A stretch of 41,342 nt of DNA from Betaproteobacteria bacterium. GTDB taxonomy: Bacteria; Pseudomonadota; Gammaproteobacteria; Burkholderiales; Burkholderiaceae_C. Both the position numbers and the translations under genes were made by a program. This document shows positions 17,431 to 34,185 of this stretch, piece by piece. Where the stretch lies: NCBI GenBank assembly GCA_009921465.1, contig RFXS01000003.1, positions 1 through 41,342 of the forward strand. The letters run 5' to 3'. Position 1 is the stretch's first letter. Every line of letters begins with the position of its first letter. The notes below the pieces were generated by a model that was not told the origin of the DNA, searched no databases, and worked only from the letters and a program-made list of their open reading frames with translations.

Positions 17431-17459
17431 CTGACACAAGCTTGTCACAAATGTTTCAC
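17431..17459 (+). promoter_or_regulatory. Candidate Pho box (three 7-mers, 11-bp period)
   Basis: CTGACAC-aagc-TTGTCAC-aaat-GTTTCAC, 71 nt upstream of the 17531 ORF; compare PhoB consensus CTGTCAY-N4 repeats. Confidence 0.65.
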
Positions 17460-17530
17460 ACTGGACACGCTTGCGATGTGGTGAGGCTGTGTTAATGTTT
17501 TAGCCTTTCCCATGAAGCCCAAGGTCAACC

Positions 17531-17791
17531 ATGCGTGCCATCAAACAAGTCCGTCGAATCATCCAAGCCGACCCCACTTCAGCTGCAGCCAAAGCGTTTT
17601 CTGATTTGATACTGGCACTCGAATCCGAGGCGGCCTCCCCCATCAAAGGCCTGTATCAACTGTCCCCCAATGACTTTGACTTGGCCATCCAGTTGCTCAA
17701 AGACTGGCGCTTAGACCGCTTTTACGAAGGCAAGGCCAAAGCCTTTGATGTGGCTTATCAGGCCCATGACCTGCAAAAACCATCGGCTTGA
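17531..17791 (+). CDS. Hypothetical 86-aa protein
   Basis: ATG ORF MRAIKQVRRIIQADPTSAAAKAFSDLILALESE...; no family recognised; isolated gene preceded by a Pho-box-like array. Confidence 0.65.
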   Translation: MRAIKQVRRIIQADPTSAAAKAFSDLILALESEAASPIKGLYQLSPNDFDLAIQLLKDWRLDRFYEGKAKAFDVAYQAHDLQKPSA

Positions 17792-17838
17792 CCCGTTCAA
17801 CTTCCCCGTCGCACCTTTCCAAGTCCACCCGTGCGGCA

Positions 17839-19041
17839 TCAAGCCATGTTTGGTGCATGCTCTTGCATCACTTGGCGAAAAATTTTCTCTGTTTTTTGAA
17901 AAATCAGCGGCCACGCTTGACCCAGGGCCGTGATGCGGGCCTCTTGGCCCATTTGCGCGCGCAAATTGTGCTTTTCAGCCATCTCCAGAGCCGCCCCCGC
18001 GAAAGCAGCCTCGTCCCCGGGCTCAATGAGTTGTCCGTTTTCACCACTTCGAATCAATTCGGCAGCGGCTGCATGCCGGTATGCCACCACGGTCAGCGCG
18101 CTGGACATGGCCTCTAAGGTGACATTGCCAAATGTTTCGGTCAAACTGGGAAACAAAAACATATCCCCGCTGGCATAGTGTTGGGCCAAGTCTTCGCCCG
18201 TGCGAAAGCCAGCAAATATCACCTGAGGGTGTTTTTTTTCTAGCGCATGGCGCAGTGGCCCGTCGCCCACCAACACCAACTTTGTATCTTTGCGCACAGT
18301 TTCCAAGCGTTCAAAAGTGGACATGACCACATTGAGATTTTTTTCGGCTGCCAAACGGCCCACGCACAGCAACACCAAGGTGCTGTCATCGGCACCCCAT
18401 TGCTGCCTGAGTGACACAGACCGGCGCATGGGATTGAACAAGTCCGTGTCCACCCCCCTGGGCACGACATGCAATCGCTCAAACCCCATGGCCGCCAGCT
18501 CGGTGGCAAGTCCTGGCGTGGGAACCATGGTTGCCATAGCTGCATTGTGAAATTTGCGCATGTAATTCATGATGGCACCGCGCAACCAACCAATGCCGTA
18601 ATGACCACTGTACGCATGGAAATTGGTTCTGAAGTCGGTGCTGACCGGCAATTTGAGTTTTTTGGCCGCTTGCAATGCCGACCACCCCAGCGGGCCTTCT
18701 GTGGCGATGTGCACCACATCCGGTCGGTGCAGAGTCCACAGACGTGTCAAAGCACGCTTGGCAGGAAAGCCCATTTTCAAGTGCTTGTAAAACGGTATGG
18801 GCATGCCACGCACCAGCGTTTCATCGGTCAGCACCTTGCCGCCCTGATCTGCATCCTTGAGTTGACGAGGGCGAATCAACCACAGCGCATGCCCACGGGT
18901 TTTCAGCCCTTCAACTGTTTTGCTCAGCGTGTGCGCAACCCCATTGATGTCTGGTGGATAGGTCTCAGTGACCACAGCAATTCGCAATGGGGATGAAGAA
19001 CCATTGAAACAAACAACATCGATAGAGGCATCTGAGTGCAT
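17839..19041 (-). CDS. GT4-type glycosyltransferase (MgtA/PimB-like; possible glycolipid glycosyltransferase)
   Basis: LRIAVVTETYPPDINGVAHTLSKTVEGLKTRGH, HIATEGPLGWSALQAAKKL, LLCVGRLAAEKNLNVVM, FLFPSLTETFGNVTLEAMSS. Start uncertain (18987 TTG also possible). Confidence 0.88.
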   Translation of the reverse strand: MHSDASIDVVCFNGSSSPLRIAVVTETYPPDINGVAHTLSKTVEGLKTRGHALWLIRPRQLKDADQGGKVLTDETLVRGMPIPFYKHLKMGFPAKRALTRLWTLHRPDVVHIATEGPLGWSALQAAKKLKLPVSTDFRTNFHAYSGHYGIGWLRGAIMNYMRKFHNAAMATMVPTPGLATELAAMGFERLHVVPRGVDTDLFNPMRRSVSLRQQWGADDSTLVLLCVGRLAAEKNLNVVMSTFERLETVRKDTKLVLVGDGPLRHALEKKHPQVIFAGFRTGEDLAQHYASGDMFLFPSLTETFGNVTLEAMSSALTVVAYRHAAAAELIRSGENGQLIEPGDEAAFAGAALEMAEKHNLRAQMGQEARITALGQAWPLIFQKTEKIFRQVMQEHAPNMA

Positions 19042-19063
19042 AGCAACAATGTGACACCTTTAC

Positions 19064-19081
19064 ATCACAGTTTGATGACAT
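19064..19081 (-). promoter_or_regulatory. Candidate Pho box for the glycosyltransferase gene
   Basis: Minus strand ATGTCAT-caaa-CTGTGAT, 11-bp period, each 7-mer 6/7 to CTGTCAT. Confidence 0.55.
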
Positions 19082-19117
19082 TGGCGCAATAAATTAACAG
19101 CGGCGAATCCCTCAGCA

Positions 19118-19135
19118 GTGTCATCAAAATTTCAC
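19118..19135 (+). promoter_or_regulatory. Candidate Pho box for the 19196 membrane protein gene
   Basis: GTGTCAT-caaa-ATTTCAC, 11-bp period, 60 nt upstream of the start codon. Confidence 0.5.
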
Positions 19136-19195
19136 CGAAATTGGCCACATTTCCCTTATTGTTCGCTTGTCTCTCATCCAACTTTAGGAGAAATC

Positions 19196-19804
19196 ATGAA
19201 AGATTTATTGCAAACTCTGCGCACCCAACGTTGGGATGACCATCGTTACTATCACCACAGCCGCATCAATCAAGCCTTGCATTTGGTCAGTGCGCTTTCT
19301 TTTTTGGTGGCGTATGCGTATTTATTCATCGACCCGGTGGTCTCTGCTTTGATCGCATGGCTGATTTCCATGACCACACGGCAAATTGGACATTTCTTTT
19401 TTGAGCCCACTGGCTTTGATGAAGTCAACAACGCCACGCATGAGCACAAAGAAGATATCAAAGTCGGTTACAACTTGCGCCGCAAAGTGGTGTTGTTGAG
19501 CATCTGCGCCGCCATTCCAGTCATCGCTTATTGGATGCCCGACTACCTCACCTGGGCAGTTCCCCAGGCCTACGAAGACACCCCTGTCCGCATGACCGCC
19601 ATGGCTTGGCTGTTTTTAGGTGTGGCTGGGTTGGTGTTCAGGGTGTTGCAACTTTGGCTGCAAGACGGCTTGATGTCTGGAGTGGCATGGGCTTTGAAAA
19701 TCATCACCGATCCATTCCACGACATCAAAATGTATTACCGCGCACCTTTTTATCTGGCCAAGGGTCAATTGCTTGATCCGATGGAACACGTCAAGTCACA
19801 TTGA
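19196..19804 (+). CDS. Conserved polytopic membrane protein, His-rich; distantly Mpo1/DUF962-like in appearance
   Basis: AGGAG RBS; HHSRINQALHLVSALSFLVAYAYLF, TRQIGHFFFEPTGFDEVNNATHEHKEDIKVGYNLRRKVVLL. Family assignment tentative. Confidence 0.7.
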   Translation: MKDLLQTLRTQRWDDHRYYHHSRINQALHLVSALSFLVAYAYLFIDPVVSALIAWLISMTTRQIGHFFFEPTGFDEVNNATHEHKEDIKVGYNLRRKVVLLSICAAIPVIAYWMPDYLTWAVPQAYEDTPVRMTAMAWLFLGVAGLVFRVLQLWLQDGLMSGVAWALKIITDPFHDIKMYYRAPFYLAKGQLLDPMEHVKSH

Positions 19805-21475
19805 TCACACCGCCCATTTGATTCGGATCATCTCTCGCAATATATCGCGTCGGATGGTCCGATTGCTTTGTCCATTTTCAACCCACCACCATCCATCGTT
19901 TTTCATGGCTTGGGCGGCTTGCGTGAAACGGTTGCAGAAATCGGCAAAGTAGGCATCTTCAAAGGCAAAGTTGAAAATCATTCGACCCGTGCCCACCCAA
20001 CTGAGGGCGATGCCTTGTTCGCGCAAATAAAACTGCAGCATCCAGTTGTAGCGACTGGGGACTTCATAGATGACTGCCCATACTGTCGCCATGCCAACCA
20101 CGCGCACCGGCAAGGCTTGCCCTGCCAATTGTTCATTGAGTTGATGCAATCGATTGATCCACAAGGGCTCCATTTTTCGATAAACATCTTGTATGGCTGC
20201 GCTTTGTACCCGCTTGAGAAACACATTCATGGCGCCCATCACACCCGGATGAGCGTTGAATGTGCCACGTGCAAAACAAATATTGCCGGGGGTTTGTTCA
20301 TCGTAGCGGCGCATCCATTTGGCCTTTCCGCAAACCACGCCAATTGGGAAGCCACCGCCCAAGGTTTTCCCATAGGTGACGATGTCCGCATCCACGCCAA
20401 AGAATTCTTGCGCGCCCCCCAGGCCCAACCGAAAACCCATGAATACTTCGTCCATGATGAAAGCGATGCCTTTTTCATCACAAACCTTGCGCAACTCAGA
20501 GAGCCAACTTGCATAGGCTACTTTGTCATAAGACATGCTTCGCGAGCCATCCATCAAGGTCGAGTCCGTGGGAGCGGCCTTGTTGGGGTGCATGGCTTGC
20601 AAGGGATTGACCAACACGCAGGCAATGTCATTGCGCTGGCGCAAGACTTTGAGGGTTTGCGCATGCATTTCGTTCAAGGTCAGCGTGTCCCCAGATGGTG
20701 GCATGGGGTTGCCAGGGCCGGGTTGCACGTCGTCCCACCAACCATGGTATGCACCGGTGAAACGAACCAATTTTCGCTTGCCCGTGTGGTATCGCGCCAT
20801 TCGCACCGCCTGCATCACGGCCTCTGTACCAGACATGTGAAAGGACACTTCATCCTTGTGCGCGATTTGACACAACATCGAGACGTTTTCTTGCACACAA
20901 GGGTGATAGGCCCCCAAGATGGGTCCCAGTTCGCGCACCAAATCCATGCCCTCTTGCATGCAACTCTTGTAAAAATCGGCTCCAAACAGGTTCACCCCAT
21001 AGCTGCCCGTGACATCCATGTGCCACTGTGCGTCGGCATCGGCTACCCAAACCCCTTTGCTGTGCGCCCAATAACTGCCAATTTGCAGGTTTTCACTCAG
21101 GAATTTCTGAAATTGAAAGGGCACCCGATAACGCGATATCAACTGCATGTCCGACACCATGGGTTTGGTGGCTTGGGTCAGCGCCATTGTTTTCGGACTG
21201 CGCTGTGCCAGCAGGTCACCAAGCCTTTGGAGCGCTTGCTTTCTCTGTGCCTGAACAGCCTCAGGCGCGTGATCAACACAAAACCACCGCTCCACAGGGT
21301 AGTCATAGGCTGGCGCCCAGTTGGCCAATCGTTTGGCCCAACGCAAGTGACCAGCCAAGGATGGGTGCTTGGCCATCGACAGTTGCAAACGCTGCCACAG
21401 CCATCCGCCCCAGTAAAGCGCGGCCAAGGCCGACACAACCATGATCACCAAAGACTGATATATCTCTTCAAACAT
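19805..21475 (-). CDS. Class III PLP-dependent aminotransferase (glutamate-1-semialdehyde aminomutase-like) with N-terminal TM segment
   Basis: N-terminus MFEEIYQSLVIMVVSALAALYWGGWLW (TM). Aminotransferase core: SGTEAVMQAVRMARYHTGKRKLVRFTGAYHGWWDD, FIMDEVFMGFRLGLGGAQEFFGVDADIVTYGKTLGGGFPIGVVCG. Confidence 0.9.
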   Translation of the reverse strand: MFEEIYQSLVIMVVSALAALYWGGWLWQRLQLSMAKHPSLAGHLRWAKRLANWAPAYDYPVERWFCVDHAPEAVQAQRKQALQRLGDLLAQRSPKTMALTQATKPMVSDMQLISRYRVPFQFQKFLSENLQIGSYWAHSKGVWVADADAQWHMDVTGSYGVNLFGADFYKSCMQEGMDLVRELGPILGAYHPCVQENVSMLCQIAHKDEVSFHMSGTEAVMQAVRMARYHTGKRKLVRFTGAYHGWWDDVQPGPGNPMPPSGDTLTLNEMHAQTLKVLRQRNDIACVLVNPLQAMHPNKAAPTDSTLMDGSRSMSYDKVAYASWLSELRKVCDEKGIAFIMDEVFMGFRLGLGGAQEFFGVDADIVTYGKTLGGGFPIGVVCGKAKWMRRYDEQTPGNICFARGTFNAHPGVMGAMNVFLKRVQSAAIQDVYRKMEPLWINRLHQLNEQLAGQALPVRVVGMATVWAVIYEVPSRYNWMLQFYLREQGIALSWVGTGRMIFNFAFEDAYFADFCNRFTQAAQAMKNDGWWWVENGQSNRTIRRDILREMIRIKWAV

Positions 21476-21514
21476 GTGCTTCCCTTTCAGAAGCACCTTT
21501 TGTATTTCAATAGG

Positions 21515-21532
21515 ATGAAACAATGATGACGA
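21515..21532 (-). promoter_or_regulatory. Weak candidate Pho box upstream of the aminotransferase, overlapping the psd start codon
   Basis: Minus strand TCGTCAT-catt-GTTTCAT, 11-bp period, 40 nt upstream of the aminotransferase start. Confidence 0.35.
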
Positions 21533-22392
21533 TTCGACGCTGGTTGCGAAATATGGGCGCGCAAGAGGACTTGAACTTTCTGCTGACAAACCGAATTCCC
21601 AGACTGGCGGCAACCCATTTCATGGGTTGGTTCAGCCAAATACAACACCCCTGGGTGTGCCGGGCATCTATATATATATGGCGTTTATTCACAGACATAG
21701 ATCTGAGCGAAGCAAAAGAGCGAACCTTCGACAGCTTGCATGCTTTTTTTATCCGCGAGCTCAAATCAGGGGCACGCCCCTTGGACCTGCGAGCGGACAT
21801 CTTGACGAGTCCTTGCGATGGCATTTTGGGCAGTTGTGGTGAAGTACATGCGGGGCAGGTTTTTCAAGCCAAAGGTTTCCCGTATCCGCTGCATGATTTG
21901 TTTGGTGACGCCCTTGCAGCGAGCCCCTGGCACGATGGGGTGTATGCAACCATCCGCATCACCTCGGCCATGTACCACCGCTTTCATGCACCATTTGATG
22001 GCCGCTTGCACAGGGTGGACTACCTCAACGGCGACACTTGGAACGTCAACCCCATAGCGTTGCAACGCGTGGAGAAGCTCTTTTGCAAAAATGAGCGCGC
22101 GGTACTGCACATGACCACCGCCGCCAACCACCCCATTGCTTTGGTACCCGTGGCCGCCATTTTGGTTGCCAGCATCAGGCTGCATGCCATTGACACCTTG
22201 CTCCACACCCGGTATCAAGGCCCCCACCGCATTGACACAGACCAGGGCTTTGTCAAGGGCCAAGAAATGGGCTGGTTTCAGCACGGCTCGACCATCTTGG
22301 TCTTTGCCCCCAAAGGGTTTTCGTTGCTGCCTGGCTTAGCTACCGGTAGTGCTTTGAGAATGGGCCAAGCCTTGATGGCCTTTCCCAATTGA
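21523..22392 (+). CDS. psd: Phosphatidylserine decarboxylase
   Basis: SPCDGILGSCGEV, SAMYHRFHAPFDGRLHRVDYLNGDTWNVNP, EMGWFQHGSTILVFAP (GST self-cleavage site). Confidence 0.93.
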   Translation: MMTIRRWLRNMGAQEDLNFLLTNRIPRLAATHFMGWFSQIQHPWVCRASIYIWRLFTDIDLSEAKERTFDSLHAFFIRELKSGARPLDLRADILTSPCDGILGSCGEVHAGQVFQAKGFPYPLHDLFGDALAASPWHDGVYATIRITSAMYHRFHAPFDGRLHRVDYLNGDTWNVNPIALQRVEKLFCKNERAVLHMTTAANHPIALVPVAAILVASIRLHAIDTLLHTRYQGPHRIDTDQGFVKGQEMGWFQHGSTILVFAPKGFSLLPGLATGSALRMGQALMAFPN

Positions 22393-22423
22393 ATCCGTCA
22401 GCAAGGTGGAACCGCACGGCATC

Positions 22424-22463
22424 TCGTCACGATAAGTTCTTAAAAGCTTCACGAAGATTTCAC
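22424..22463 (+). promoter_or_regulatory. Candidate multi-repeat Pho box upstream of ugd
   Basis: TCGTCAC-gata-AGTTCTT-aaaa-GCTTCAC-gaag-ATTTCAC, four 7-mers in exact 11-bp register (second one degenerate), 56 nt upstream of ugd. Confidence 0.55.
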
Positions 22464-22519
22464 GCATTTTTTCGAAACTGTAGGCATCGTTTCATTCGAT
22501 GTTCAAACAGGAGAAGCAA

Positions 22520-23968
22520 ATGCAAATCACCATCATTGGCAGTGGGTATGTGGGCCTGGTCACTGGAACCTGCTTGGCGGAACTGGGCAACGATGTGGTT
22601 TGCCTGGACATGGCTGCCGACAAAATAAGAAGTCTCAACAGCGGCGTGGTGCCCATCTATGAGCCCGGCTTGGACGACTTGGTGGTGCGCAACCGCAAGC
22701 AAGGTCGATTGCAATTCACCACCGATACTGCGCTGGCCATAGAACATGGCGACGTGATTTTCATTGCCGTGGGCACACCCCCACAAGAAGATGGCAGTGC
22801 TGACTTGTCTTATGCCCTGAGTGCCGCCAGCGACATTGGGCGCTGGATGCGCACTGACAAAGTGGTGGTCAATAAATCAACCGTTCCAGTGGGTACCGCT
22901 GAGCGGGTCCACCATGCCATCTCCATTGAATTGAGCAAACGAGGCATTGACTTGGAGGGCACCAACTCATCTGAGGGCAACACACGACTGCGCTGTGCAG
23001 TGGTCTCCAACCCTGAGTTTTTGAAAGAGGGGGCTGCTGTCGAAGATTTCATGCGCCCTGACCGCATCGTGTTGGGTGTATCCAATGACGCACTGGGTCA
23101 GTGGGCCCTGTCACAGATGCGCCATTTGTACGCACCATTCAACCGACACCATGAACGCACCTTGGTGATGTCGCAACGAGCTGCCGAAATGACCAAATAC
23201 GCAGCCAATGCCATGCTGGCCACCCGGATTTCGTTCATGAACGAATTGGCCAACTTGAGTGAGCGCTTGAATGTGGATATTGAGTCAGTGCGGCAAGGCA
23301 TGGGCTCAGATCCCCGCATTGGCTATGGTTTTTTGTACGCGGGCGCAGGGTATGGTGGCTCGTGCTTCCCCAAGGATGTGAAGGCATTGCACCGAACCGG
23401 CATCGAGCAAGGGGTTGCAATGCAAATTCTCAGCGCGGTGGAACATGTGAACCAGCGTCAAAAACACCGCCTCCTGGACAAAGTGATCGCCCAATTTGGC
23501 GGCGATTTGCGGGGGCACACTTTTGGCATTTGGGGCTTGGCCTTCAAACCAGAAACCGATGATATGCGCGAGGCACCGAGTCGCACAGTGATCAATGGGT
23601 TATTGCGTGCAGGAGCGCGGGTGCAAGTCCACGACCCCGTGGCCATGGAGACGGGACAACTGGCTTTGCAAGAAGACTTGATGGACGTTCCTGAACTTTG
23701 GGGCCAGTTGAGTTTTCACGATGACCTCATGGATGCCGCAGATGGTGCGGATGCACTGCTGATCTTGACCGAATGGAAATCCTATCGAAGCCCCAATTTC
23801 CAGCAATTGAAAAGCCGGCTCAAAAACGCTTTGATATTTGACGGGCGAAATTTGTTTGACCCGCAGCAAATGGAACAAGCGTGTTTCTCATACCACGGCA
23901 TAGGGCGCGTGTCGCGCCCCACCACCCCAACGACCTATCCATCAGCAAGCATGGCAACGACCGACTGA
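22520..23968 (+). CDS. ugd: UDP-glucose 6-dehydrogenase
   Basis: [84 protein letters not shown]. Confidence 0.97.
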
Positions 23969-23979
23969 GCCTGGGGCCC

Positions 23980-25218
23980 TCATGGGCCTTGGGTGCTGGC
24001 GGGGTTTCGGCCAACATGCCGCGCACACACCAAGGCCATGCAAGTGGCAATGAGCCCCCCCAATACCCAGGTGATGGTTGCAAAGGGACACTCCAGATAG
24101 AGCAATCCGCTGTAAACGGCCATCATCAAAACCACGCTGGTATTTTCATTCAAGTTTTGAACCGCCACGGAGCGCCCCGCTGTGAGCAATGTGATGCCCC
24201 GATGCTGCAGCAATGCATTCATGGGGACCACAAACAAGCCACTGATGGCCCCGACAAGCAGCATCATGCACAAGGCCATTGGCCAAGTGGTGACCAGATT
24301 CATCAGGGGCAACATGAGCCCCAGCAACACACCCAAGCCAAGCACCCGGGTTGCCCGGTGCAAAGGAACCCATCTCCCAGCCATCCATGCACCCGCGACA
24401 ACCCCTGCAGCGGTACACGCCTGCAAATAAGCCCCTTGATCCAATCCCAGACCCAAAACCTGCTGACACCACAGCAAAACCAGCAATTGCATGGTCGCCC
24501 CCGCCCCCCAAAATAAGGTCGTCACTGCCAAACTGACTTGTCCCATGGGGTCGGACCACATGGCTTTTTGATCCACCCAAAAATCGGCACACACGCGGGT
24601 CAAGTGCCATTGGCTTGCTGTGGGTGTGATGCCACTGTGGGGTATGCCACGCTGAATCAGGGCCACCGCGGCATAAACGCCCATGATCACAAGCACCGAA
24701 GCGCCAAACCGACTGCCCCAGCCACCCCACTTGTTGATGCCATGGACCCAGTGCAAGGTGGTCCACAGATCACTGATCAAAGCGCCCCCCAAGGCAACGC
24801 CCAAAACAGCTGCGCTGACGGTGCTCACTTCGATCCAAGCATTGGCGCTGACGAGCCGCTCGGGTGGCTCCACTTCGGTGATCCAGCCATATTTGGCGGG
24901 CGAGTAAATGGCCGCACCCAAACCCACGCACACATAGGCCAACATCACATCCAAGCCCAGCATCAACGATGCGACTGCCATCAGCTTGAGCGCATTCGCC
25001 CATTGCATGACCATGGGCTTGTGCCATGCATCCGCCAACCGCCCCACCCAAGGAGCCAACAACACATACGACAAGGTAAACCCCATTTTCAACAATGGGA
25101 TCCAGTGGGCTGCTTTGGACTGTTCGACCAGCATGGCAATCACCACCAACAACAAGGCGTTATCAGCCAGTCCGGCCAAACCTTGGGCTGCCATCAAGCG
25201 ATGAAAGCCTGGGCTCAT
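23980..25218 (-). CDS. lplT: MFS transporter, LplT-like lysophospholipid transporter
   Basis: FHRLMAAQGLAGLADNALLLVVIAML, LAYVCVGLGAAIYSPAKYGWITEVEPPERLVSANAWIEVSTV resembles LplT. Confidence 0.85.
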   Translation of the reverse strand: MSPGFHRLMAAQGLAGLADNALLLVVIAMLVEQSKAAHWIPLLKMGFTLSYVLLAPWVGRLADAWHKPMVMQWANALKLMAVASLMLGLDVMLAYVCVGLGAAIYSPAKYGWITEVEPPERLVSANAWIEVSTVSAAVLGVALGGALISDLWTTLHWVHGINKWGGWGSRFGASVLVIMGVYAAVALIQRGIPHSGITPTASQWHLTRVCADFWVDQKAMWSDPMGQVSLAVTTLFWGAGATMQLLVLLWCQQVLGLGLDQGAYLQACTAAGVVAGAWMAGRWVPLHRATRVLGLGVLLGLMLPLMNLVTTWPMALCMMLLVGAISGLFVVPMNALLQHRGITLLTAGRSVAVQNLNENTSVVLMMAVYSGLLYLECPFATITWVLGGLIATCMALVCARHVGRNPASTQGP

Positions 25219-25234
25219 GGAAGCAATGATGCCG

Positions 25235-26008
25235 TCAAGCCGCCTGAACCACGGAGGCGTGAACATAGGATTTGTCGATCAACTGATCCCAATAAATCAG
25301 CTCCAATCGACCGTCCATGTGTTCAACCAATGCCGTTCTGCTCTCTACCCAATCTCCATCGTTGCAATACAAAATCCCATCGATGTGTCGCATTTCAGCC
25401 TTGTGGATATGCCCGCACACAACCCCTTGATAGCCCCGTCGCGCAGCCTCATGGGCGACGGCTTTCTCGAAGTCCGAGACATAGCTCAATGCTTTTTTAA
25501 CTTTGTGTTTCAGATATGCCGACAACGACCAATAGCGCATACCCAACTTGGCTCTGATCCGATTGAAATGTCTGTTCATGCGCAGAGTGAACTCATACAA
25601 ATAGTCACCCACATAGGCCAGCCATTTGGCATACTGAACCACGGCATCGAAGTAATCACCATGTGTCAGCCACAACCTTCTTCCATCTAGCAATGTGTGC
25701 GACCCCTCTTCCATCACCACAATGCCGCCAAAGTGTTGGCTGGTGAATTCACGGGCAAACTCGTCATGGTTACCGGGGATGTAGACCACCCGACAACCTT
25801 TGCGCACCCTGCGCAAAAGCTTTTGAATCACGTCATTGTGTTCTTGCGGCCAGTACCAATTGCGCCTGAGTTGCCAGCCATCCACCATGTCACCAATCAG
25901 GTACAGGTAATCACTTTCGTGGGATTTCAAAAAATCAAGCAAGGCTTGCGCTTGACAACCTGCCGTCCCCAAATGGACGTCCGATATAAATACCGCGCGG
26001 TAATGCAT
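25235..26008 (-). CDS. COG2908-type metallophosphoesterase (UDP-2,3-diacylglucosamine diphosphatase-like; PlcP-like phospholipase C candidate)
   Basis: FISDVHLGTAGCQAQALLDFLKSHESDYLYLIGDMVDGWQLRRNWYWPQEHNDVIQKLL, YIPGNHDEFARE, WLTHGDYFD, GVVCGHIHKAEMR, YCNDGDWVES. Confidence 0.85.
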   Translation of the reverse strand: MHYRAVFISDVHLGTAGCQAQALLDFLKSHESDYLYLIGDMVDGWQLRRNWYWPQEHNDVIQKLLRRVRKGCRVVYIPGNHDEFAREFTSQHFGGIVVMEEGSHTLLDGRRLWLTHGDYFDAVVQYAKWLAYVGDYLYEFTLRMNRHFNRIRAKLGMRYWSLSAYLKHKVKKALSYVSDFEKAVAHEAARRGYQGVVCGHIHKAEMRHIDGILYCNDGDWVESRTALVEHMDGRLELIYWDQLIDKSYVHASVVQAA

Positions 26009-26850
26009 CAAGCTCTCAAAAAATGTCGACGATACTTTTCCGGAATGTCTTTGAGCGCCAGCATCATGGGTAAATCCGCACTGTTGAAGTCCTGATCCCA
26101 AGCAGGCGGACCCAATAATTTAGCCCCTAATCTGAGGTAACCACGGATCAATGGTGGGGGCTCAACCGCCAAGTCGGCTTGCGCTTGGTGCAGTGGCAAT
26201 GCAAATCGCGGGCTGACCCGGTATTCAATGGGTGCCAAGTGTGTCTCCTTCATCCGCGCCCACAGACTGGCGGCCACTTGGGTATTGACCACGCCGTTAT
26301 GCAGCATCGGGATGCTGGCGCAGCCCAACATGGTTTCAAAATGATTTTGTTGCATGAATGCAATCAAAGCACCCCACAAGGCCATGATGACCGACCCTTG
26401 GCGGTGGTCTGGGTGAACACAGCTGCGGCCAAATTCGACCATCCCAGGGCGCAATCCCCGCAAACGCACCAAGTCAAACTCGGTGTCCGTATAAGTGCCC
26501 CCCATGCGTGACGCTTGTGCTGGCACCAATACGCGATAAGTACCCACGACAGGCCCATCAGGGCCCGCGCGCACGGTCAGGTGTTCGCAATAGTCATCAA
26601 ACACATCGATGTCATGCCCTGGCAACGCGCTGGCAATGTGGGCGCCCCATTCGTTGGCAAACACTTGATATCGCAAGCGCTGCGCTTCGCGCACCTCATC
26701 CAAATGTCGTGCCCATTGGATGCAAGCCTTGACCGGCTCTGGCGTTGCATCAGGCCGGGGTGCGGTATGAACATCTTTGACACGGTTGGTGAGATCCAGT
26801 CCCCAACCTGTTGTGATGGTGTGCGTGAGCTGTGCGGACCCAACTGACAT
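26008..26850 (-). CDS. olsB: GNAT acyltransferase, OlsB-like (ornithine lipid biosynthesis, N-acyltransferase)
   Basis: VEFGRSCVHPDHRQGSVIMALWGALIAFM, MLGCASIPM, PPPLIRGYLRLGAKLLGPPAWDQDFNSADLPMML resemble OlsB. Confidence 0.82.
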   Translation of the reverse strand: MSVGSAQLTHTITTGWGLDLTNRVKDVHTAPRPDATPEPVKACIQWARHLDEVREAQRLRYQVFANEWGAHIASALPGHDIDVFDDYCEHLTVRAGPDGPVVGTYRVLVPAQASRMGGTYTDTEFDLVRLRGLRPGMVEFGRSCVHPDHRQGSVIMALWGALIAFMQQNHFETMLGCASIPMLHNGVVNTQVAASLWARMKETHLAPIEYRVSPRFALPLHQAQADLAVEPPPLIRGYLRLGAKLLGPPAWDQDFNSADLPMMLALKDIPEKYRRHFLRA

Positions 26851-26893
26851 GAACGCTCCATTTGTTGCATTCCTGTCAGTGTGTGTGCCTTGC

Positions 26894-26933
26894 GTGACAA
26901 CGCCATGTCTTTGATGTGAAACTTTTTTGACGC
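26894..26933 (-). promoter_or_regulatory. Candidate four-repeat Pho box upstream of olsB
   Basis: Minus strand GCGTCAA-aaaa-GTTTCAC-atca-AAGACAT-ggcg-TTGTCAC, exact 11-bp period, 43 nt upstream of olsB. Confidence 0.6.
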
Positions 26934-30069: not shown

Positions 30070-30912
30070 ATGATGAAATTTTTCAAACTTGCATGCAACG
30101 CGGCATTGGCAATGGCGGTGGCCCTGGTGATGGGTTGCGCGAGCACACCGGTCAGCGACTACCAACCACAGCGGGGCCAAACGGGCAAAGATGTCATTTG
30201 GATACCCACCTCGCCCGAGTTGGTGACCCGCATGTTGAACATGGCCAAAGTCTCCAACCAAGACATCGTCTACGACTTGGGGGCGGGTGACGGCATCATT
30301 GCCATCACCGCTGCCAAGCAGTTTGGTGCACGGGCCTTTGGCATTGAGTACAACCCCCAAATGGCCTTGCATGCCCAAAGCAACGCGCGGATTGCGGGCG
30401 TGGCAGACAAGGTCAGCATCCGCCAAGGGGACATTTTTGAAGAAAAGTTCGACGAAGCCAGCGTGGTCACCATGTACCTGTTGCCCCACCTGAATTTGAA
30501 GTTGCGTCCGACCTTGCTCAAAATGAAACCGGGCACACGCATCGTCTCGCATGCATTTGACATGGGAGAGTGGGAACCAGACGACAGGGTAGGCTTTGAT
30601 TACGCCAGCGCTTACCTGTGGGTTGTGCCCAGCGCCGTTCAAGGCCAGTGGACCTTGCAAGAAGTCGACAGCAGCGCACAGTCGGTGTTGGAGATCGAAC
30701 AAATTTTTCAACGCATCGGCGGCACCATCACCGAGCGAGGCCACAAAAGCCCGCTGCTGGGCGCGCAATTGCGTGGCGACAAAATTGCATTTCAATACGT
30801 GGGCGCTGACCAACAACTGCGCAGCGTCACCGCACAAGTCAGCGGCAAGCGCATGCAAGGCGTGATGACTTTGCAAGGCGGTCAACTGCCCATAGAAGCC
30901 ACTCGCCCTTGA
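30070..30912 (+). CDS. Predicted lipoprotein with class I SAM-dependent methyltransferase fold and C-terminal beta-rich domain
   Basis: N-terminus MMKFFKLACNAALAMAVALVMGCAS (lipobox); DIVYDLGAGDGIIAITAAKQFGARAFGIEYNP (motif I); VVTMYLLPHLNLKLRPTLLKMKPGTRIVSHAF. Confidence 0.85.
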   Translation: MMKFFKLACNAALAMAVALVMGCASTPVSDYQPQRGQTGKDVIWIPTSPELVTRMLNMAKVSNQDIVYDLGAGDGIIAITAAKQFGARAFGIEYNPQMALHAQSNARIAGVADKVSIRQGDIFEEKFDEASVVTMYLLPHLNLKLRPTLLKMKPGTRIVSHAFDMGEWEPDDRVGFDYASAYLWVVPSAVQGQWTLQEVDSSAQSVLEIEQIFQRIGGTITERGHKSPLLGAQLRGDKIAFQYVGADQQLRSVTAQVSGKRMQGVMTLQGGQLPIEATRP

Positions 30913-32345: not shown

Positions 32346-33185
32346 TCACTGCTTTTGAGCGCTCAATGGAACGGCCGGGCTCAGCACCTGTTGCTGCGCT
32401 TGCAAGCGGCCCGCGTCAATGCGGCCACTGACCTTGGCCACGCTGCCATCTGAACGCTGGTATTCAAACTGAAACTCGTTGCCTCGCAAACGGCCCTTGA
32501 CCACTTTGTATGTTTGCCCTTGCAAACTCAGGCTGCCATCGAACATTTGGTCTTTTTGTTGCAGGCTCAGCTGACCAGTTTGCCCGCCCAATTGCACCGT
32601 CCACTGCCCTTCGATGCGAGCTGGGATGATCCAAAAATAACCGCGCCCGCGGTCTGCTTCGATGGTTTCATCGGGCACCCAGTCGTCCATGTTGAAGGAG
32701 TTGGACACCACACGCGTGCCTGGCTTCATTTTTTGCAAGATGGGTTTGAGACGCAAATTGAGTTGGGGCAACAAATACAAAGTGACGACAGTGGCCGATG
32801 AAAAATCTTCCACAAAAATGTCGCCCCGAATGATGCTCACCTTGTCCTTGAGGCCAGCGCGCTCCACGTTGCGCTGGGCCAATGCGGCCATTTCGGGGTT
32901 GAACTCAATCCCAACTGCACGGGCTCCGTGGTAGAGCGCGGCCGCGATGGCGATCTTGCCGTCACCAGCGCCCAGGTCGTAGACCAGGTCTTTGTCGGTC
33001 ACTTGCGCAGTGCGCAACATTTTTTCTATCAACTGATCGGGGCTGGGGACCCACACCACGTCTTTGCCCGATTGGCCCACCGTGGGTTTGTATTGGTCAT
33101 CGCCCAGGGTTTGGGCCGGTGCAGAAATACCCAGGCACAAGCCCAGCAGGCTGGTGATGAAAGACCGTTTGCCCATGTTGCGCAT
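32346..33185 (-). CDS. Exported class I methyltransferase-fold protein, paralogue of 30070..30912
   Basis: Signal-like MRNMGKRSFITSLLGLCLGISAPAQ; DLVYDLGAGDGKIAIAAALYHGARAVGIEFNP; VVTLYLLPQLNLRLKPILQKMKPGTRVVSNSF; GGAG RBS before the ATG. Confidence 0.87.
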   Translation of the reverse strand: MRNMGKRSFITSLLGLCLGISAPAQTLGDDQYKPTVGQSGKDVVWVPSPDQLIEKMLRTAQVTDKDLVYDLGAGDGKIAIAAALYHGARAVGIEFNPEMAALAQRNVERAGLKDKVSIIRGDIFVEDFSSATVVTLYLLPQLNLRLKPILQKMKPGTRVVSNSFNMDDWVPDETIEADRGRGYFWIIPARIEGQWTVQLGGQTGQLSLQQKDQMFDGSLSLQGQTYKVVKGRLRGNEFQFEYQRSDGSVAKVSGRIDAGRLQAQQQVLSPAVPLSAQKQ

Positions 33186-33306
33186 GTTTTCACTCCTTTG
33201 GGGTGCGTGTGAGAAGGGAGGGTTGGCACCAAAGTTTAATGAATGGCGATAACCGTCTCCATCACAAGGGCATGCGTGCACCCATCCTGCGCACGCTGTT
33301 GCCGGT

Positions 33307-34185
33307 TCACAGGTGTGTGCGCAAACTCCAAATTTCAGGAAACAGCACCACGTCGAGCATGCGGCGCAAATACGAAACCCCGCCTGTGCCACCCGTGCCA
33401 CGCTTGAAGCCAATCACCCGCTCCACGGTGGTGAGGTGGCGAAACCGCCACAGCCTGAATGCGTCTTCCAAATCGGTCAACTCTTCTCCCAACTGATACA
33501 AGTCCCAGTGCGTTTCAGGTTCGCGGTATACCCGTAGCCAAGCGGCCTCGACCGCGTCGCTGGCCTCATAAGGCTGTGACCAATCGCGCTCCAAATGGCT
33601 GTCAGGGATGGGCAATCCGCGCCGGGCCAATAAGCGCAACGACTGGTCGTACAAGGACGGGGCTTGCAAGGCCAACTGCACTTGGTGCAGCACATCGGCC
33701 CGGTGGGCATGGGGTTGCAGCATGGCCACTTGTTTATTGCCCATGGCAAATTCAATGCACCGGTATTGGTGGCTTTGAAAGCCACTGGAGGCAGCCAAAT
33801 AAGGCCTGATGGCCGTGTACTCGGGCGGCGTCATGGTGGCCAGTACATCCCAGGCGTGGACCAACTGGGCCATGATGGTGCTGACCCGCGCCATCATTTT
33901 GAACGCCATGCTCAGGCGATCTTGCTCTATGCACTGAATGGCGGCAGCCAATTCATGCAGCATCAGTTTCATCCACAGCTCGCTGGTTTGGTGTTGCACG
34001 ATGAACAGCATTTCATCGTGTGCTGGTGACAGCGGTTGCTGCGCTTTGAGAATGGCATCGAGATGCAAATAGTCGCCATACGACATGTCTTGGCTGAAAT
34101 CCATTTGCGGTTTGTCCTCAGGCGCAGACCCCTTGATCTTGTCGAGGGGCGGGTTTGCTGGGGCGGATGAAAAAGGACAATTCAC
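33307..34185 (-). CDS. kynA: Tryptophan 2,3-dioxygenase
   Basis: [84 protein letters not shown] start chosen; ATG at 34104 is the alternative. Confidence 0.95.

Follow-up and report, generated by a model that had tools for sequence, protein, structure and literature searches.

The 41,342-nucleotide stretch analyzed here (the window; forward strand of contig RFXS01000003.1) derives from a Burkholderiales bacterium whose habitat is probably freshwater, and many of the related genomes are lake metagenome bins. At positions 17431 to 26933 it carries an island that is very likely a PhoB-controlled membrane-lipid renovation cluster, with a trio of genes as one component: a second psd, a class III aminotransferase with a predicted membrane anchor, and a His-rich membrane protein resembling Mpo1. 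An initial annotation, made from the DNA letters and open reading frames (ORFs), had placed in the island a family 4 glycosyltransferase (GT4), a His-rich membrane protein, a class III aminotransferase, psd, ugd, and an operon of olsB, a COG2908 protein, and lplT; Pfam and NCBIfam profile searches find every one of these genes where it had been placed.

PhoB boxes in the island

An 18-bp PhoB matrix (consensus TTGTCACAATATTGTCAC) was trained on the pstS promoters of congeneric genomes (26 promoters, with a site in 25), the island being excluded from training; in the source genome itself, pstS and a PhoB scoring above its family cutoff share one contig (C172). The top five sites in the window on both strands, at 14.6 to 18.6 bits, are sites already picked out by eye in the initial annotation, and the sixth-best scores 10.0 bits. 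These boxes are upstream of an 86-aa ORF (17431 to 17459, plus strand, three 7-mers at 11-bp spacing; 18.6 bits at 17431 and 14.6 bits at 17442, with 23.6 for the three-unit array), towards the GT4 gene (19064 to 19081, minus strand; 15.4 bits), towards the Mpo1-like gene (19118 to 19135, plus strand; 14.7 bits), and upstream of olsB-plcP-lplT (26894 to 26933, minus strand, four 7-mers at 11-bp spacing; 15.7 bits, and the best four-unit array of the window at 22.5). No site of at least 12 bits occurs in 135 kb of background from the same genome or in the window's remaining 30 kb, and dinucleotide shuffles match the observed scores in 1, 11, and 8 of 2,000 cases for the 86-aa, GT4/Mpo1-like, and olsB promoters, respectively. 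The matrix scan against shuffles and genome background, named as a test in the initial annotation, thus puts the PhoB sites far above background.

Two further sites are weaker. A degenerate four-unit PhoB-like array lies upstream of ugd (22424 to 22463, plus strand; 4.3 bits as an 18-mer) and another weak array lies across the psd start, towards the aminotransferase gene (21504 to 21532, minus strand; 4.5 bits for the 18-mer at 21515 to 21532). With the 18-bp matrix both are unremarkable, with about 0.6 such sites per kb in the background and matches in 281 and 357 of 2,000 shuffles, respectively. By a spacer-free score of 11-bp-phased half-sites, the ugd array is approximately the third-best four-unit array region in the window (0.0023 expected in the segment) and 21504 to 21532 is the third-best three-unit array (0.0013 expected), although this score was picked only after the 18-bp matrix had failed, and these two sites alone carry less weight. 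The 11-bp-phased 7-mers originally seen by eye therefore stand at the five top sites, and at ugd and the aminotransferase/psd start they do so by the array score but not by the matrix.

Conservation of the boxes in relatives

Median best-site scores in orthologous promoters are 14.1 for GT4 (84% at 10 or above), 14.0 for the Mpo1-like gene, 14.4 for ugd, 15.2 for olsB, 14.3 for the 86-aa gene, and 9.5 for the shared aminotransferase and psd promoters, compared with -0.5 in 652 control promoters from the same loci; the orthologous promoters are related sequences, and P values against the controls overstate their independence. The corresponding medians for plcP and lplT are 7.7 and 0.1, lplT lacking a box of its own because it is downstream in the operon. 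PhoB control of the plcP operon through the box at 26894 to 26933 is thus supported, and this one box probably serves olsB, plcP, and lplT, since plcP overlaps both of the others. The 86-aa ORF (17531 to 17791, plus strand) has no Pfam or NCBIfam family above cutoff; of 201 genomes from the family, 26 have homologues, and 73% of the 26 homologues scored are preceded by a PhoB box of 10 bits or more, making this gene a candidate new member of the Pho regulon.

The site at the psd start occupies one fixed position in 71 of 88 loci. Because the start codon contributes part of the motif, it was compared with ATG-anchored controls: the median is 9.2 at 81 psd starts versus -15.3 at 1,724 control ATGs, and scores climb to 18.6 bits in a different family of the order and to 16.0 in a different class. 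In the window itself the copy is weak, its score of 4.0 falling within the top 2% of control ATGs. We note that a box fixed at this position and facing the divergent aminotransferase gene could activate one gene while blocking the other.

That the 11-bp repeats arose by chance is scarcely credible. Two of the six sites are indeed weak by the 18-bp matrix, but for four promoters chance is contradicted by the independent matrix, control promoters, and conservation, as well as by the background and shuffles, on which we reject it there.

PlcP in the olsB operon

The overlapping genes olsB, plcP, and lplT form an operon, in which plcP (25235 to 26008, minus strand) codes for the COG2908-type protein. 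The initial annotation had likened it to PlcP, a phospholipase C, and had named a phylogeny as the test. It is 53% identical to a Sinorhizobium meliloti homologue and 55% to a Pseudomonas aeruginosa homologue, compared with 20 to 27% for LpxH, and LpxH models score it far below cutoff. In a tree, from which the P. aeruginosa homologue is absent, it groups with the S. meliloti PlcP homologue and apart from LpxH, with support of 100/100. The S. meliloti homologue adjoins acyl-homoserine lactone synthase and LuxR genes, which we take to be the sinI/sinR-SMc00171 gene order, SMc00171 being PlcP. The P. aeruginosa homologue is followed by a glycosyltransferase and then CyaB, which fits the published PA3219-PA3218 arrangement (PMC8528852).

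Were the protein LpxH instead, functioning in lipid A synthesis, the phosphorus-starvation reading would be wrong for this operon. Its homologues are publicly annotated as UDP-2,3-diacylglucosamine diphosphatase, and the source genome, 58% complete, yielded no second copy. However, identities and model scores contradict this, and in each of the 10 congeners whose genomes are complete or nearly so there is a separate true LpxH above cutoff plus a second, low-scoring copy; LpxH identity has a negligible probability and is rejected on the tree and on this separate LpxH. On sequence grounds the COG2908 protein is PlcP, and its family suggests that it would cleave phospholipids to diacylglycerol.

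PlcP-type proteins in public records (L191, L192, L194, L304, and others) carry the LpxH label UDP-2,3-diacylglucosamine diphosphatase, and those tested group with PlcP; this is probably a widespread misannotation. A plcP-like gene is also borne by plasmids CP075839.1 (L194, ~160 kb, from P. aeruginosa) and NZ_CP042268.1; in CP075839.1 an agt1-like gene, cyaB, and a DUF962 (Mpo1-like) gene come after it, as in the chromosomal arrangement.

A strictly linked trio of psd, aminotransferase, and Mpo1-like genes

A scan for the aminotransferase in named genomes and congeners, with strong matches in ~40 of 61 congeners, yielded more than 100 loci, and adjacency was counted only at loci with 4 kb or more of sequence on each side of the gene. 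It is flanked by psd at 45/45 loci and by the Mpo1-like gene at 44/45, and in other families and classes both are beside it at 18/18 loci. A glycosyltransferase gene accompanies the trio less strictly, at 42/45 and 13/18 loci, respectively. At nearly all loci psd is divergent from the aminotransferase gene and the Mpo1-like gene convergent with it; elsewhere there is a single operon of aminotransferase, glycosyltransferase fusion, psd, and Mpo1-like genes, in some cases (in another family) with an OlsF-like gene next. Of 300 genomes of the order, 34 have a strong aminotransferase match, as do 26 of 399 at the level of the phylum. Among Alphaproteobacteria, Sphingomonas parapaucimobilis is a named example; there a methyltransferase gene adjoins, and a "hypothetical protein" is assigned to the Mpo1-like slot by position.

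At sphingomonad-type loci (L245:7931-8569, L247:8037-8696, and L303:8478-9131), a small S-adenosylmethionine (SAM) methyltransferase, PmtA-like by eye, is coded beside the Mpo1-like gene. Three other loci (L252:3674-6352, L253, and L254) code within the trio operon for a protein of ~900 aa whose C-terminal part is of GT4 type and whose N-terminal half matches nothing in Pfam.

The aminotransferase (19805 to 21475, minus strand; PF00202) is closest to the aminotransferase domain of MycA, by sequence (166 bits versus 116 for HemL), by profile (226 versus 159), and by fold (rank 1 to 2), with 27 to 28% identity over the catalytic domain. Its pyridoxal phosphate lysine, K370, is invariant, and we interpret a predicted N-terminal helix (residues 2 to 35) as a membrane anchor. 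HemL (glutamate-1-semialdehyde aminomutase) was considered and rejected, the score being 153 against a 527-bit cutoff and the MycA domain being closer. The module psd (21523 to 22392, plus strand) scores 150.6 bits with TIGR00163 (cutoff, 111.75) and is a second copy, there being another psd in 13 of 13 genomes. Its maturation motif is HGST, as in 85 of 86 module copies, compared with LGST in the housekeeping copies without a box, a comparison that covers six long-type genes only. The Mpo1-like protein (19196 to 19804, plus strand) matches PF06127 with an E value of 1.7e-4, slightly below cutoff, and has no match in a sequence search of the PDB; six histidines (H16, H20, H29, H66, H175, and H198) are invariant in 18 homologues.

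The initial annotation had proposed the 86-aa protein, the membrane protein, and the aminotransferase as new components. The latter two form a strict trio with psd, and the 86-aa protein is a candidate Pho-regulon product. The proposal there of a compact Pho-controlled lipid module holds as far as sequence can tell, with the core shifted to the trio and with GT4, PlcP, ugd, olsB, and lplT varying around it.

Linkage to PlcP and to phosphate genes

PlcP is present in 31 of the 34 genomes of the order with the aminotransferase and in 117 of the 266 without it (Fisher P = 6e-8; 300 genomes, kinship ignored), and the two genes lie within 15 kb of each other in 21 of the 31 (kinship again ignored). 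OlsB is not enriched with the trio across the same genomes (27/34 versus 188/266; Fisher P = 0.20), and the trio is therefore tied to PlcP and glycolipid renovation more than to ornithine lipids. De novo clustering of neighboring genes in relatives finds PhoU, PhoB, PhoR, PstSCA, PhoX, parts of C-P lyase, and a phosphonate-binding protein near the module, as well as PPK2, Ppk, Ppx, DUF3419 (BtaA family), and an OlsA-like acyltransferase; several of these names were given by eye and part of them were checked with Pfam. In eight congeners pstS is ~16 to 22 kb from the aminotransferase gene, and in another class the glycosyltransferase neighboring the trio is an Agt1 homologue (~49 to 50% identity). 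Synteny in related genomes, a comparison suggested in the initial annotation, thus places the module among Pho-regulon genes and links it to PlcP across Burkholderiales.

Several observations speak against a PhoB-controlled renovation cluster that includes the trio. The trio occurs without PlcP in 3 of the 34 genomes of the order and in 7 of 22 trio genomes of other families and classes (the other 15 have PlcP). The psd-start box faces the aminotransferase gene and covers the start of psd, so that it might not activate psd. The Mpo1-like protein reaches only 22.1 bits with PF06127 (gathering score, 24), a weak assignment, and a fold search with its predicted model gave no significant match to solved folds. 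For GT4, the nearest NCBIfam models, GlcN-PG (glucosaminyl-phosphatidylglycerol) synthase and monoglucosyl-DAG (diacylglycerol) synthase, are both below cutoff, and the OlsB equivalog cutoffs are missed (137.6 versus 350 and 127.9 versus 320 bits), although these are the best models for that protein.

It is conceivable that the trio has a general envelope-lipid function that is not specific to phosphorus starvation and is near Pho genes in Burkholderiales by coincidence. The families in which it lacks PlcP would fit this, as would the weak or absent PhoB box at some loci outside Burkholderiales. We consider it improbable, however, as Burkholderiales conserve the boxes at the aminotransferase/psd start, which score up to 16 bits in a different class, the GT4 and Mpo1-like promoters have medians of 14, and Pho neighbors recur.

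The remaining enzymes are of known types. GT4 (17839 to 19041, minus strand; Pfam GT4) is a candidate diacylglycerol (or phosphatidylglycerol) glycosyltransferase; because it is just 33% identical to a PA3218-like Agt1, we infer rather than assign its sugar donor and acceptor, and closer Agt homologues (44 to 50%) are separate genes in relatives. UDP-glucose 6-dehydrogenase is coded by ugd (22499 to 23968, plus strand; TIGR03026 above cutoff, with TuaD as the best model), and the lysophospholipid transporter by lplT (23980 to 25266, minus strand; NF008397, 435.9 bits versus a cutoff of 297), which overlaps plcP. The head gene of the plcP operon, olsB (26008 to 26850, minus strand; PF13444), has OlsB as its nearest models and codes for a putative OlsB-like ornithine N-acyltransferase. 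Elsewhere in the window, at 30070 to 30912 and 32346 to 33413, two similar SAM-methyltransferase-like ORFs lie around a transporter ORF and are possibly paralogues.

A proposed role in phosphorus starvation

Under phosphorus limitation, phosphorylated PhoB would switch on the olsB-plcP-lplT operon and the GT4, Mpo1-like, and 86-aa genes, and probably ugd and the aminotransferase gene too. Judging from their families, PlcP would remove phospholipid head groups to leave diacylglycerol, which GT4 may glycosylate with UDP-glucose or with UDP-glucuronate derived through Ugd, while OlsB would start ornithine lipids and LplT would recycle lysophospholipids. The trio of second Psd, aminotransferase, and Mpo1-like protein would act in the same response, and our guess is that the aminotransferase adds an amino group to a keto-lipid. 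Because the aminotransferase is nearest to MycA and is accompanied by a second psd and a His-rich Mpo1-like protein, we tentatively suggest, as a possibility well short of even odds, that under phosphorus starvation the trio produces or modifies an aminated lipid free of phosphorus, for example one with a beta-amino acyl chain, in an unrecognized pathway that extends across several proteobacterial classes.

The main rival to this guess has the trio dismantling phosphatidylethanolamine (PE): Psd2 would convert leftover phosphatidylserine to PE, PlcP would cut PE, and the aminotransferase would act on the amine of PE or of the phosphoethanolamine released, aiding phosphate recovery. The strict pairing of psd with the aminotransferase gene, the genome-wide link to PlcP, and the class III fold are consistent with such a role, and the class III family includes phosphoethanolamine phospho-lyases. 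We nonetheless think it unlikely. The nearest solved relatives of the aminotransferase are beta-ketoacyl and beta-selective aminotransferases, no phospho-lyase appears by name among the PDB matches listed, a soluble substrate would hardly call for a membrane anchor, and this reading leaves the Mpo1-like protein unexplained.

Comparison with known systems

Lipid renovation by PlcP and Agt is known from Sinorhizobium, Phaeobacter, Pelagibacter, and P. aeruginosa (PA3219-PA3218/PA0842), as reported in two papers (PMC4796936 and PMC8528852); the studies consulted describe lipid renovation in marine bacteria, rhizobia, methanotrophs, and Pseudomonas. The island shares with these systems a PlcP orthologue, a glycosyltransferase, and PhoB boxes, with Ugd as a plausible source of UDP-glucuronate, and in some relatives the trio has a plcP-agt-like pair within a few kb of it. 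It differs in that its plcP shares an operon with olsB and lplT and its GT4 is distant from Agt1 (33%). The trio was not found in the accessible parts of the descriptions of those systems (PMC4796936 and PMC8528852), nor in the literature searched, as far as accessible and with subscription papers and supplementary tables left out.

As in OlsBA/OlsF synthesis of ornithine lipids, the island has an olsB with a PhoB box, while relatives carry an OlsA-like gene close to the module and the operon of another family includes an OlsF-like gene; in contrast, the island lacks OlsA and the trio does not co-occur preferentially with OlsB. The aminotransferase domain of the mycosubtilin synthase MycA (PDB 6KFM/6KFU), which adds an amino group to a carrier-bound beta-ketoacyl chain, is nearest to the island aminotransferase among solved structures in both sequence and fold, although the latter is stand-alone, putatively membrane anchored, and without carrier or condensation domains. 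The N-terminal part of the Mpo1-like protein weakly matches the Mpo1/DUF962 2-hydroxy fatty acid dioxygenases (PF06127) and it has invariant histidines, but it falls below the Pfam cutoff and, at ~200 aa, has extra helices.

In many lakes growth is limited by phosphorus, and lipid renovation is one of the main bacterial routes for saving it, a route that this cluster would carry over to Burkholderiales. A strictly linked trio with a lipid-type transaminase is also a concrete claim on an undescribed membrane lipid. The PlcP-glycosyltransferase scheme itself is already known; what is new here is the psd-aminotransferase-Mpo1-like trio as a strict unit, linked to PlcP in Burkholderiales.

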